From: Geothermobacter ehrlichii
GTDB lineage: Bacteria > Desulfobacterota > Desulfuromonadia > Desulfuromonadales > Geothermobacteraceae
Length of the DNA: 64,000 bases
Assembly: GCF_008124615.1 (NCBI RefSeq)
Contig: NZ_VNIB01000003.1
Location: 1 to 64,000, forward strand
Direction of reading: 5' to 3'
A program made the position numbers and the translations under genes. Below the pieces are notes generated by a model. The model saw nothing but the letters and a program-made list of their open reading frames with translations. It was not told the DNA's origin and searched no databases. Shown here piece after piece: positions 6,661 through 57,264 of the stretch. How positions within the stretch are numbered: the first letter of the stretch is position 1; each line of letters starts with the position of its first letter.

Positions 6661-6756
6661 GAAGACGCTGAAAAGGCCACTTCGACAAAAAGCGAAGTGG
6701 CCTTTTGATTTTTGTGCGGAGTAGAATGGACCTGTTCAACAATTAAACAACGTTCC
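6661..6756. repeat. Hairpin repeat, copy B (~95 bp)
   Basis: This is the direct copy of the repeat at 1220-1311. It has the same GAAGACGCTG start, the same 10-bp stem (6675-6702) and the same CAACAATTAAACAACGT tail. The right end abuts a 5'-truncated EamA transporter frame. The two copies lie about 5.4 kb apart around the XRE remnant, the intron remnant and the activase gene. Confidence 0.85.
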
Positions 6757-21255: not shown

Positions 21256-21318
21256 GTCGATAAACGGGGGAGGTCGCTTGCGGCCTCCGCCCACGTCCGT
21301 GGTTTTTGCCGGAGGGTG

Positions 21319-21417
21319 CAGAGATGGAGAGAACGCAGAGGAAACAAAACTCGATTTTGGTTTTGAAACCAAACGAAGATTTGTTTTTTTCTCCGCCTCT
21401 GCGCCTCTCCATCTCAG
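21319..21417. repeat. CGCAGAG-type palindromic repeat, copy R1
   Basis: The left arm GAGATGGAGAGAACGCAGAG is mirrored by CTCTGCGCCTCTCCATCTC at the right, giving a nearly perfect 20-bp stem. Inside, AAACAAA...TTTGTTT and TTGGTTT/AAACCAA extend the hairpin. It separates AOR from the next gene without an open frame and belongs to the same family as the repeats at 30.2, 40.3, 55.3 and 56.4 kb. Confidence 0.7.
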
Positions 21418-21493
21418 CGTTAAATGGATTTTGACCTTTCTGGTGGCCGCCTGGATGTTCTGGCGGCAAACGATTTGGAATAAAGGAAGGGGA

Positions 21494-30167: not shown

Positions 30168-30290
30168 TCTCGCGCTCGCTCGTTTTTCTCGCTAAAGGCG
30201 CAAAGACCGCAGAGGCAATACGCCGAAAGACTCTCTCCTTGTTTGCTTTTCTCTGCGTCTCGAGTGAGCAACTGCGAACGGGCGCGAGAC
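30168..30290. repeat. CGCAGAG-type palindromic repeat, copy R2
   Basis: It begins ATCTCGCGCTCGCTC, contains GGCGCAAAGACCGCAGAGG, and ends CTCTGCGTCTCGAGTGAGCA followed by CTGCGAACGGGCGCGAGAC. The last 40 bases align with the right ends of R3 and R4. It splits the nickel operon between cbiQ and the ATPase gene (the 251 bases 30097-30347 hold no gene). Confidence 0.7.
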
Positions 30291-40323: not shown

Positions 40324-40455
40324 TGCGCGCAGAGCCGCAGAGCCGCGAAGAAGATCCGGAAGGGAAAACCGTTCAATGGCGGATACGGCGAACTCCCGAA
40401 AGGACGGGCTCTGCATCTCCGCGTCTTGAGTGAGCTCAAGCGAACGGACGCGAGT
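40324..40455. repeat. CGCAGAG-type palindromic repeat, copy R3
   Basis: It begins GCGCGCAGAGCCGCAGAGCC, has a less conserved 70-base middle, and ends GGGCTCTGCATCTCCGCGTC followed by TTGAGTGAGCTCAAGCGAAC and GGACGCGAG. The right 35 bases match R4 almost exactly. It lies between the DUF1015 gene and serC, close upstream of the serC ribosome site. Confidence 0.7.
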
Positions 40456-55282: not shown

Positions 55283-55372
55283 ACTCGCGCAGAGACGCGG
55301 AGATGCAGAGGAGATGCTGCTCTCTGCGTCTTTGCGTCTTGAGTGAGCGCAAGCGAACGGACGCGAGACAAC
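55283..55372. repeat. CGCAGAG-type palindromic repeat, copy R4
   Basis: It begins ACTCGCGCAGAGACGCGGAG, has CTCTGCGTCTTTGCGTCTTG on the right side, and ends AGTGAGCGCAAGCGAACGGA followed by CGCGAGAC. The arms pair across a short GCAGAGGAGATGCTGCTCTC centre. It sits between the mutase stop and the meaB start and shares its right 35 bases with R3. Confidence 0.75.
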
Positions 55373-55389: not shown

Positions 55390-56367
55390 TTGATTCGTAT
55401 CAAGGAACTCGCCGCCGGTGTCCGCGCCGGCAACATCCGCTCGTTGGCCAAGGCCATCACCTTGGTCGAAAGCCGCAGCCCCGACCATTCGCTGGCCGCT
55501 ACCACCCTGCTCGACGAACTGCTGCCGGCCGCCGGCAACGCCATCCGCATCGGCATCTCCGGCGTGCCCGGCGTCGGCAAGAGCACCTTCATCGAGGCTC
55601 TCGGTCTCTACCTGACCGGTCGCGGTCACAGGGTGGCGGTGCTGGCGGTCGATCCCTCGTCGCAACTGTCCGGCGGCTCCATTCTCGGCGACAAAACCCG
55701 CATGGAGGAGCTGTCGCGCGATCCCAATGCCTTCATCCGTCCCTCCCCCTCCGGCGACACCCTCGGCGGGGTGGCGCGCAAGACCCGCGAAACCATGCTG
55801 GTCTGTGAGGCGGCCGGTTACAATGTCATCATCGTCGAGACGGTCGGCGTCGGGCAGTCGGAAATCACTGTCGCGTCCATGGTCGACCTCTTCGTGCTGC
55901 TGCAGCTGCCGGGCGCCGGCGACGAACTGCAGGGGATCAAGAAAGGGGTGATGGAGATCGCCGACCTGATCCTGATCAACAAGGCCGAAGGGGACAACCG
56001 CCCGCGAGCCGAGCTGGCCAAGTCGCAGATCGAAACCGCCCTGCACATCATGCAGCCTAAAAGTTCAAGCTGGCAGGTGCCGGTGCTGCTCTGCTCCGCC
56101 CTGAAAGGCGAAGGGATCGCCGAGACCTGGCAAACCATCGAAGACTACCGCCGGACCATGGAGCAGAGCGGCGAATTTGCGGAAAAACGCCGCCTGCAGG
56201 CCAGCGACTGGATGTGGAGCCTGCTGATGGACGGCCTGAAGGATCTCTTCATGCGCGATCCCCGGGTCGCCGCCCTGCTGCCGCAGGTGCAGGACGCCGT
56301 CGCCAACGGCACCTCGACCCCGGGGGCGGCGGCGCGCCGACTGCTGGAGGTGTTCAAGAGGCACTGA
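55390..56367 (+). CDS. meaB: Mutase-associated GTPase MeaB (ArgK family)
   Basis: A 325-residue G3E-type GTPase: P-loop GISGVPGVGKSTFIEAL, VLAVDPSSQLSGGSILGDKT with the switch region, IIVETVGVGQSEITVA (base of Walker B), and NKAEGDNRPRAELA for guanine binding. It gates cobalamin transfer into methylmalonyl-CoA mutase and rescues the enzyme from inactivation. The start is a TTG at 55390 behind AAGGA; the frame open from 55303 runs through repeat R4. Downstream is the repeat-bounded GxxExxY insertion. Confidence 0.94.
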   Translation: MIRIKELAAGVRAGNIRSLAKAITLVESRSPDHSLAATTLLDELLPAAGNAIRIGISGVPGVGKSTFIEALGLYLTGRGHRVAVLAVDPSSQLSGGSILGDKTRMEELSRDPNAFIRPSPSGDTLGGVARKTRETMLVCEAAGYNVIIVETVGVGQSEITVASMVDLFVLLQLPGAGDELQGIKKGVMEIADLILINKAEGDNRPRAELAKSQIETALHIMQPKSSSWQVPVLLCSALKGEGIAETWQTIEDYRRTMEQSGEFAEKRRLQASDWMWSLLMDGLKDLFMRDPRVAALLPQVQDAVANGTSTPGAAARRLLEVFKRH

Positions 56368-56373
56368 TGTATT

Positions 56374-56832
56374 TATCTCGCGCAGAGGCGCAGAGTCACA
56401 GAGAGGGATGGTTCATGGATGAACCGCTGAACTGGTTGTCGGGGCAGGTTGTGGATGCCGCTTTTCGGATTCATGTCAGGCTCGGTTCCGGCTTGCTGGA
56501 ATCGGTCTATGAAATGGTTCTGGCTTATGAACTGGAAAAGCGTGGGCTCAGTGTTGCACGGCAGGTTCCGATCGAAATCAGGTATGACGATTTGTTTATA
56601 AAAGAGGCTTTTCGGGCCGATCTGATTGTTGAGGATGCTCTGATCATCGAACTCAAGTCGGTGGAAACACTCTTGCCGGTCCACAGCAAGCAGTTGCTCA
56701 CATATCTGAAATTGACCAACAAAAAACTGGGCCTGCTGTTGAACTTTGGCGCTCCTGTTTTCAAGGATGGAATCGTTCGACTGGTAAACGGATTGTGATT
56801 TTCTCTCGCGCCTCTGCGTCTCCGCGCGAGAT
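56374..56832 (+). mobile_element. GxxExxY gene bounded by inverted CGCAGAG repeats (putative mobile element, R5-R6)
   Basis: The left arm, ATCTCGCGCAGAGGCGCAGAG from 56374, is the reverse complement, with a few differences, of the right arm ending CTCTGCGTCTCCGCGCGAGAT at 56832. Between them is one complete gene (56415-56798). The arms belong to the same family as R1-R4. The unit is inserted between meaB and mce, which would otherwise be neighbours in one operon. It looks like a full version of the repeat with its gene. Confidence 0.7.
56415..56798 (+). CDS. GxxExxY family protein (PD-(D/E)XK nuclease-like)
   Basis: A 127-residue protein. RLGSGLLESVYEMVLAYELE contains the family-naming GxxExxY motif; FRADLIVEDALIIELKS provides the D-x(n)-ExK arrangement of a PD-(D/E)XK nuclease active site (Asp in RADLIV, Glu-Leu-Lys in IELKS). 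The end LLLNFGAPVFKDGIVRLVN is typical of the family. Function is unestablished; nuclease activity on nucleic acid is inferred from the fold. ATG 56415 follows GAGAGGGATG. It is less GC-rich than the neighbouring genes and lies between inverted repeats. Confidence 0.88.
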   Translation: MDEPLNWLSGQVVDAAFRIHVRLGSGLLESVYEMVLAYELEKRGLSVARQVPIEIRYDDLFIKEAFRADLIVEDALIIELKSVETLLPVHSKQLLTYLKLTNKKLGLLLNFGAPVFKDGIVRLVNGL

Positions 56833-56856: not shown

Positions 56857-57264
56857 ATGACGAAGAAGATCAACCATATTGGCATCGCCGTCAAAAGCCT
56901 CGAGGCATCCATTCCCTTCTACCGCGACACCCTCGGCATGGCCTATGAGGGGAGTGAAGAGGTGGCCGAGCAGAAGGTGAAAGTCGCCTTTCTCGCCGTC
57001 GGCGAGAGCCGGATCGAGTTGCTGGAGCCGACGGCCGAGGACTCGCCGGTGGCGAAGTTCATCGAGAAGAACGGCGAGGGAATCCATCACATCGCCTACC
57101 AGGTGGACGACATCGAGACCGCCCTGGCCGAGCTGCAGCAGCAGGAGGTGCGCCTGATCGACAAGGTGCCGCGGCGTGGCGCCCACGGCACCCGCATCGC
57201 CTTTCTTCACCCCAGGGCGACCGGCGGCGTTCTGACCGAACTGTGTCAGGCCGCGGATCATTGA
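56857..57264 (+). CDS. mce: Methylmalonyl-CoA epimerase
   Basis: A 135-residue glyoxalase-fold protein: INHIGIAVKSLEASIPFYRD provides the first metal His, GIHHIAYQVDDIETALAELQ the second, and the terminal AFLHPRATGGVLTELCQ the Glu and further ligand. It interconverts (S)- and (R)-methylmalonyl-CoA, linking the carboxylase product to the mutase. ATG 56857 follows AAAGAAAGGTATTGAG. It ends the mutase operon, behind the GxxExxY insertion. Confidence 0.95.
   Translation: MTKKINHIGIAVKSLEASIPFYRDTLGMAYEGSEEVAEQKVKVAFLAVGESRIELLEPTAEDSPVAKFIEKNGEGIHHIAYQVDDIETALAELQQQEVRLIDKVPRRGAHGTRIAFLHPRATGGVLTELCQAADH

Follow-up and report, generated by a model that had tools for sequence, protein, structure and literature searches.

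The window analysed here, a stretch of 64,000 nucleotides (64 kb) from Geothermobacter ehrlichii, contains a gene of the GxxExxY family between meaB and mce, both genes of the methylmalonyl-CoA pathway. The gene is enclosed by inverted arms, and hairpins with arms of the same family are present elsewhere in the window:

21318–21423, no strand: gene-less hairpin R1, CGTTAA-end subtype, terminating in CTCAGCGTTAA
30188–30289, no strand: gene-less hairpin R2, long right-end subtype
40325–40454, no strand: gene-less hairpin R3, long right-end subtype
55284–55368, no strand: gene-less hairpin R4, long right-end subtype, in the junction upstream of meaB
55390–56367, plus strand: meaB, upstream neighbour in the host operon
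56375–56404, plus strand: left arm, tandem heptamers CGCAGAG-G-CGCAGAG-T-CACAGAG with ATCTCG in front, sequence ATCTCGCGCAGAGGCGCAGAGTCACAGAGA
56415–56798, plus strand: GxxExxY gene, 127 aa, product predicted to be a RecB/Cas4/lambda-exonuclease-type PD-(D/E)XK nuclease, with E29, D69, E79-x-K81, Q93 and Y97 kept
56802–56832, minus strand: right arm, the left-arm heptamers inverted, sequence TCTCTCGCGCCTCTGCGTCTCCGCGCGAGAT
56857–57264, plus strand: mce (methylmalonyl-CoA epimerase), downstream neighbour in the host operon

The left arm, which closes with a single A, thus holds three heptamers at a spacing of 8 nt. Both arms are unique within the window and a single open reading frame (384 bp) lies between them. 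The inverted alignment of the arms scored 17.0, a value reached by none of 314 same-geometry windows of the 64 kb (median 9.0, next best 14.5), in agreement with an earlier note on this DNA, which had described one GxxExxY gene inside inverted arms at this junction. That note called the arms near-perfect; their inverted correspondence stands and the near-perfection does not, the match residing mainly in the heptamers and not in the linkers. Seven occurrences of tandem heptamers of the form CGCAGAGNCGCNGAG (one mismatch) were counted in the window, where 0.38 would be expected, and none of 100 shuffles gave as many. The gene is also, as had been remarked, less GC-rich (49.0%) than meaB (65.7%) and mce (63.0%). 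The element lies between these two genes and not within 23S rRNA. PADLOC gave no match for it, Rfam no family close to threshold and phage records no match, and seven matches were found in plasmid records.

The four gene-less hairpins had been taken as derivatives of the gene-bearing element. Their presence is confirmed, but they are not identical derivatives: they are related subtypes with different outer ends. Those at 30.2, 40.3 and 55.3 kb share a longer right end (GTCTYGAGTGAGC...GCGAACGG.CGCGAG), in which approximately 30 additional conserved nucleotides (30243–30288, 40409–40454 and 55322–55367; GTCTTGAGTGAGC...GCGAACGG.CGCGAG) are absent from the gene-bearing element. More such pairs are present on several contigs of the 3.24 Mb genome. 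Just one further GxxExxY gene is present there (L001, contig C7, 154991–155332), and it is also inside inverted arms. These are of another type, with a 10-nt period (CGCAGATGAA/CGCCGATGCA), and hairpins of that type are nearly restricted to the region around the gene (C7, 142–194 kb). There they cluster within approximately 50 kb (L016, C7:148000–162000, included), nearly all oriented alike and some of them in tandem, which suggests local spread. We also noticed eight CACGAAG tandem sites in the whole genome, yet no CACGAAG-armed GxxExxY gene.

The protein encoded in the window matched TIGR04256 with 140.6 bits (cut-off 35) and PF13366 (PDDEXK_3) with 138.5 bits (cut-off 22), the latter being the sole Pfam match at E<=1; no HUH tyrosine (Y1) transposase was recovered in that search. 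The residues that name the family (Gly26, Glu29 and Tyr32) are present and 99–100% conserved in 154 proteins, as are Glu29, Asp69, Glu79, Lys81, Gln93 and Tyr97 (99% each for the last two), and the QxxxY motif formed by Gln93 and Tyr97 follows the catalytic ExK, as in the RecB/Cas4/lambda-exonuclease type. The AF2 model (pLDDT 94.5) has Cas4 SSO0001 as its nearest solved fold (Foldseek E 7.8e-4; Z 9.2 and rmsd 5.1 over 103 residues); weaker matches include lambda exonuclease, MGME1, Holliday-junction resolvases and restriction enzymes, and a sequence search for a solved structure of a GxxExxY protein gave none. Sequence and model together predict a minimal Cas4/RecB-like PD-(D/E)XK nuclease with a full set of catalytic residues. 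The family is common and annotated in many genomes and, to our knowledge, has no assigned function; we also know of no PD-(D/E)XK enzyme that acts alone as a transposase.

TIGR04256 was identified in 102 of 296 genomes of the phylum of the window. Arms were examined around 154 full-length genes, 88 from the phylum and 66 from further genomes, chiefly of Bacteroidota, by aligning the 220 nt upstream of each gene with the reverse complement of the 220 nt downstream, a score of at least 12 being counted as positive; windows of identical geometry from the same loci (1,648 for the phylum and 3,873 for the others, 5,521 altogether) served as controls. Inverted arms were found around 78 of the 88 and 60 of the 66 genes, that is 138 of 154 (approximately 90%), against 3.4% of the controls in each set, a proportion that is itself an upper bound because some true repeats fall among the control windows. 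Median scores were 19.0 (phylum) and 18.25 (other genomes) against 8.5 and 9.0 for the controls. The flanking arms anticipated by the earlier note are thus found elsewhere as well, whereas its arm motif, CGCAGAG, holds for the element of the window and is in general one type among many. A typical arm has approximately three tandem heptamers, spaced by 8–10 nt, with a sequence that varies between genes and words that are mostly of the form CNCNNAN (CGCAGAG, CACAGAG, CACGAAG, CACCAAG, CGCAAAG, CGCAGAT, CAGGATT and CACGGAA, among others). Among 226 arms examined, 82 were clearly periodic, and for 79 of these the best internal period was 8, 9 or 10 nt; only 3 of 480 random 32-mers were equally periodic.

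Protein distance and arm similarity are correlated within each of the two gene sets (Mantel r -0.36 for 67 loci and -0.77 for 53 loci, 0 of 2000 permutations as extreme in each case). The correlation weakens beyond approximately 50% protein divergence and none was found across phyla, so that the co-variation holds within clades only. It would be expected from sequences in which gene and arms travel jointly, or in which the protein recognizes the arms, and alone it does not discriminate between the two. Most genes (85 of 112) are co-directional with both neighbours.

Other observations concern what the arms enclose and adjoin. At L279 (1162–2164) CACGAAG arms surround a putative two-gene, toxin-antitoxin-like pair, and the arms may carry other cargo too; a search for further genes within CACGAAG arms in genome G118 gave gene-less hairpins only, plus one wide pairing with no convincing gene. 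Several Bacteroidales elements (L054, L056, L062, L076 and L112) are nested beside a different dispersed repeat, with CCGATTAATGTA on the upstream and TCTATTCCAGCACATCAAAATAAG on the downstream side; this repeat may be a favoured target, or may belong to the element as its outer portion.

We counted exact tandem pairs of CGCAGAG, CACGAAG and CACAGAG in the same 296 genomes, 102 with and 194 without a GxxExxY gene. Mean copy numbers with and without the gene were, respectively, 8.6 and 0.45 (CGCAGAG), 3.45 and 0.38 (CACGAAG) and 17.3 and 1.5 (CACAGAG), the repeats being 9–19 times rarer where the gene is absent, and at least five copies were present in 33 of 102 against 3 of 194 genomes (p 3e-14), 19 of 102 against 2 of 194 (p 5e-8) and 36 of 102 against 6 of 194 (p 2e-13) for the three words in the same order. 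The association persisted when gene presence was permuted within families (z 4.5, 0 of 20000 permutations as high), with an opposite trend in 10 of 27 informative families, and it may in part reflect shared ancestry below family level. It also depends on arm type: genomes with a CACGAAG-armed gene have a mean of 28.0 CACGAAG copies against 2.0 in the remaining gene-bearing genomes (p 1.3e-4), and those with a CACAGAG-armed gene 70.7 CACAGAG copies against 11.6 (p 1.4e-4); the type match for CGCAGAG was not significant (p 0.11). Five genomes (G016, G019, G118, G126 and G197) have at least ten tandem copies and no GxxExxY gene. A four-helix gene (see below) was considered as the cause of the repeats in GxxExxY-free genomes; it is present in 10 of the 13 searched, with arms of another flavour, and was rejected. 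These five notwithstanding, the repeats are far rarer in gene-free genomes, so that neither of the findings that the earlier note had named as contrary to its proposal, GxxExxY genes elsewhere having no arms or repeats equally common in genomes without the gene, was encountered.

Evidence for movement comes from three Bacteroidales assemblies, in which seven copies are 83–93% identical over 430–600 bp, arms and gene included, and the flanks (up to 1.4 kb) are unrelated between loci with the exception of one 27-bp stretch. Like copies lie inside unlike flanks, and therefore the unit moves; arms and gene, judged from these alignments, form a discrete, mobile unit. The meaB–mce spacing in relatives, a comparison that the earlier note had proposed, agrees with this. 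In eight relatives (G303, G110, G314, G304, G319, G306, G299 and G307) the junction is empty (33–91 bp). G297 has a gene-less hairpin at this place; G000 (the genome of the window), G214, G154, G254 and G322 carry a GxxExxY element, with different arms, and G308 a four-helix-bundle element with arms AGAATACAGAACACAGAATATAGAAGG (L217). The five GxxExxY proteins of this junction belong to three separate lineages in the protein tree, and G214 and G254, of one genus, carry different ones; this rules out one ancestral insertion, and independent insertions at a favoured site are the simplest reading.

Ruined genes inside good arms were identified at three loci (L056:2544–2759, L126:5947–6213 and L284:1552–1773). 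These decayed genes within intact arms are a path from the gene-bearing to the gene-less form, in support of the reading of the earlier note.

Movement appears to be rare, because elements are also kept in place: in the Flavobacterium group the element stays between thiG and thiH, in the thiamin operon, in approximately 34 genomes (L061 and syntenic loci), and the pairs L030/L036, L033/L045 and L027/L029 are also vertically kept. No case of movement between close or near-identical strains was found, and at L189, where an empty site was sought, the sole close relative carries the gene as well. No target-site duplication was recognized at the Bacteroidales or own-genome copies, and no base-level empty site was obtained. 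At L164 (G133, C3:167830–175174) three copies of one GxxExxY element, approximately 97% identical, lie within 3 kb and have some flank in common; these are apparently segmental duplications.

Genes of a second family, TIGR02436 (S23p family, a four-helix bundle), have the same arrangement. An arm score of at least 12 was obtained for 87.5% of 40 such loci against 1.8% of 395 control windows, and the arms have a 7-nt period in 22 of the 26 that are clearly periodic, with words such as CGTAAAT, TAGCAGT and GTCAGGA. Examples of genes between such inverted arms are L193 (G000, C1:261934–262248), L192–L211 and L285–L313. By sequence, these genes are a putative parallel element class, and the class is then wider than the earlier note had proposed. 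In Coxiella, the intervening sequence (IVS) of the 23S rRNA has a 28-bp terminal stem and an S23p gene, the start codon of which is preceded by three tandem GACAGAT heptamers (PMC4990558). It is apparently a member of the TIGR02436 class that resides in rRNA, and the TIGR02436 elements seem to be its chromosomal counterpart.

These observations suggest that the GxxExxY gene is part of a kind of bacterial mobile element that has received very little notice. The reading of the earlier note is supported as a whole, and the role of the nuclease as the mobiliser of the arms is its inferred part. We consider it rather probable that the element is a small mobile unit whose nuclease binds and cuts arms of its own type, moving gene-bearing and gene-less units. 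According to this proposal, positions 56375–56832 would be one copy of the element: approximately three heptamer iterons, the nuclease gene and the iterons inverted. Most likely, the nuclease would recognize type-matched heptamers in double-stranded DNA at the two ends, bind them and cut at the bound arrays. The unit, or a gene-less pair of matching arms, would then be transferred or duplicated into a different intergenic location, either by direct cut-and-paste or by cutting followed by copying during host repair. Insertion would often occur within an operon, the host transcript then expressing the gene; where the gene is lost and the arms persist, a gene-less hairpin would result that could be mobilised in trans. 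A broader version, in which a lone protein unlike the known kinds of transposase (GxxExxY and, in parallel, TIGR02436) recognizes tandem-heptamer arms that match its type and propagates itself together with gene-less hairpins, as a widespread minimal element class, is put forward more tentatively, as a possibility that falls somewhat short of being probable; if true, such elements would have produced a large part of the tandem-heptamer hairpins found between bacterial genes.

The hairpins could instead be moved by another enzyme, in host replication or repair or an insertion sequence transposase, GxxExxY being a passenger or a homing-type invader of type-matched loops. The existence of repeat-rich genomes with no GxxExxY gene, the toxin-antitoxin-like pair inside CACGAAG arms at L279 and the excess of gene-less copies over the gene are all in line with it, but approximately 90% of the genes are inside arms, gene and arms have a common ancestry, gene-less copies follow the type of the resident gene and the whole unit moves with sharp ends, and we regard this explanation as unlikely. 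Distinctly less likely still is that the arms are operator-like regulator sites, with GxxExxY serving the host, regulating itself and other operons, and mobility being incidental. In Geobacter metallireducens, three to five tandem 7–8-mers on opposite strands at a variable distance, in dozens of pairs per genome, were interpreted as putative binding sites of a global regulator, with no protein assigned to them (PMC2700814). The layout is like that of the GxxExxY arms, and in the passages that describe the sites no connection to GxxExxY or mobility is drawn. That published interpretation, the co-directional location of the sites in operons and the long conservation in Flavobacterium speak for regulation; the nuclease site is, against it, complete in the protein, the flanks are unrelated, different lineages occupy one junction and the element is missing from relatives.

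An RNA-level element like the 23S rRNA IVS, with the arm stem excised from the host transcript by RNase III and operon insertion thus tolerated, shares with the GxxExxY element the layout described in Coxiella (PMC4990558) and the sense direction of most copies in operons, but it is the least probable of the alternatives, because an RNA or one-strand stem would give more G.U than A.C mismatches, and these are 106 and 119, with no wobble bias, and because pairing would give complementary linkers, and these have an identity of 0.556 against 0.508 when shuffled (97 of 1,000 as high), not beyond chance. Equal mismatches and non-complementary linkers speak against an RNA stem as the main explanation of the arms, and the heptamer is the conserved unit; heptamers repeated at approximately one helical turn have the look of iterated protein-binding sites and argue for putative sites of that kind.

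Returning to the mobile element, the REPIN–RAYT system (Bertels and Rainey 2011, PMC3116915) is, by analogy, probably the nearest in mode of working. In both, dispersed inverted doublets form hairpins, many of them gene-less, with one small nuclease or transposase gene matched to the repeat type, and the doublets track the gene numerically. RAYT is, in contrast, an HUH tyrosine transposase that is normally beside its REPs, whereas the GxxExxY protein is a predicted PD-(D/E)XK nuclease whose gene is enclosed by arms built of tandem heptamer iterons. The Coxiella IVS also has a small gene within terminal inverted repeats, tandem heptamers upstream of the start codon and a presumed selfish nature (PMC4990558), but it is located in the 23S rRNA, its gene product is the four-helix S23 protein and its ends are processed as RNA, whereas the GxxExxY element is located in operons, with arms devoid of RNA pairing bias. 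With MITEs and insertion sequences it shares terminal inverted repeats and the coexistence of gene-bearing and gene-less forms, and it differs in having no DDE or HUH transposase, no recognized target duplication and iteron ends that vary by lineage. The core fold and the motifs E, D, ExK and QxxxY are those of the Cas4, RecB and lambda-exonuclease nucleases; GxxExxY is, unlike these, a bare core of approximately 120 residues, with no Fe-S domain or helicase partner, and encoded alone.

For the TAACTGA heptamer repeats of Beggiatoaceae, a repeat-binding protein was discussed as a possible mobile agent (PMC4679880). In the literature searched, to which subscription papers and preprints did not belong, GxxExxY was mentioned only incidentally and the arm repeat strings were not found. 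The link between GxxExxY and tandem-heptamer hairpins offers a testable function for the family, and the question of who moves the hairpins becomes directly answerable. If the nuclease alone mobilises the arms, a PD-(D/E)XK enzyme would be the sole mobility protein encoded by the element, and the S23p parallel offers an origin for rRNA intervening sequences. A further repeat of the window is a terminator-like hairpin in two 54-nt copies (1220–1273 and 6661–6714; AAAGGCCACTTCG...CGAAGTGGCCTTTT), which are 96% identical.
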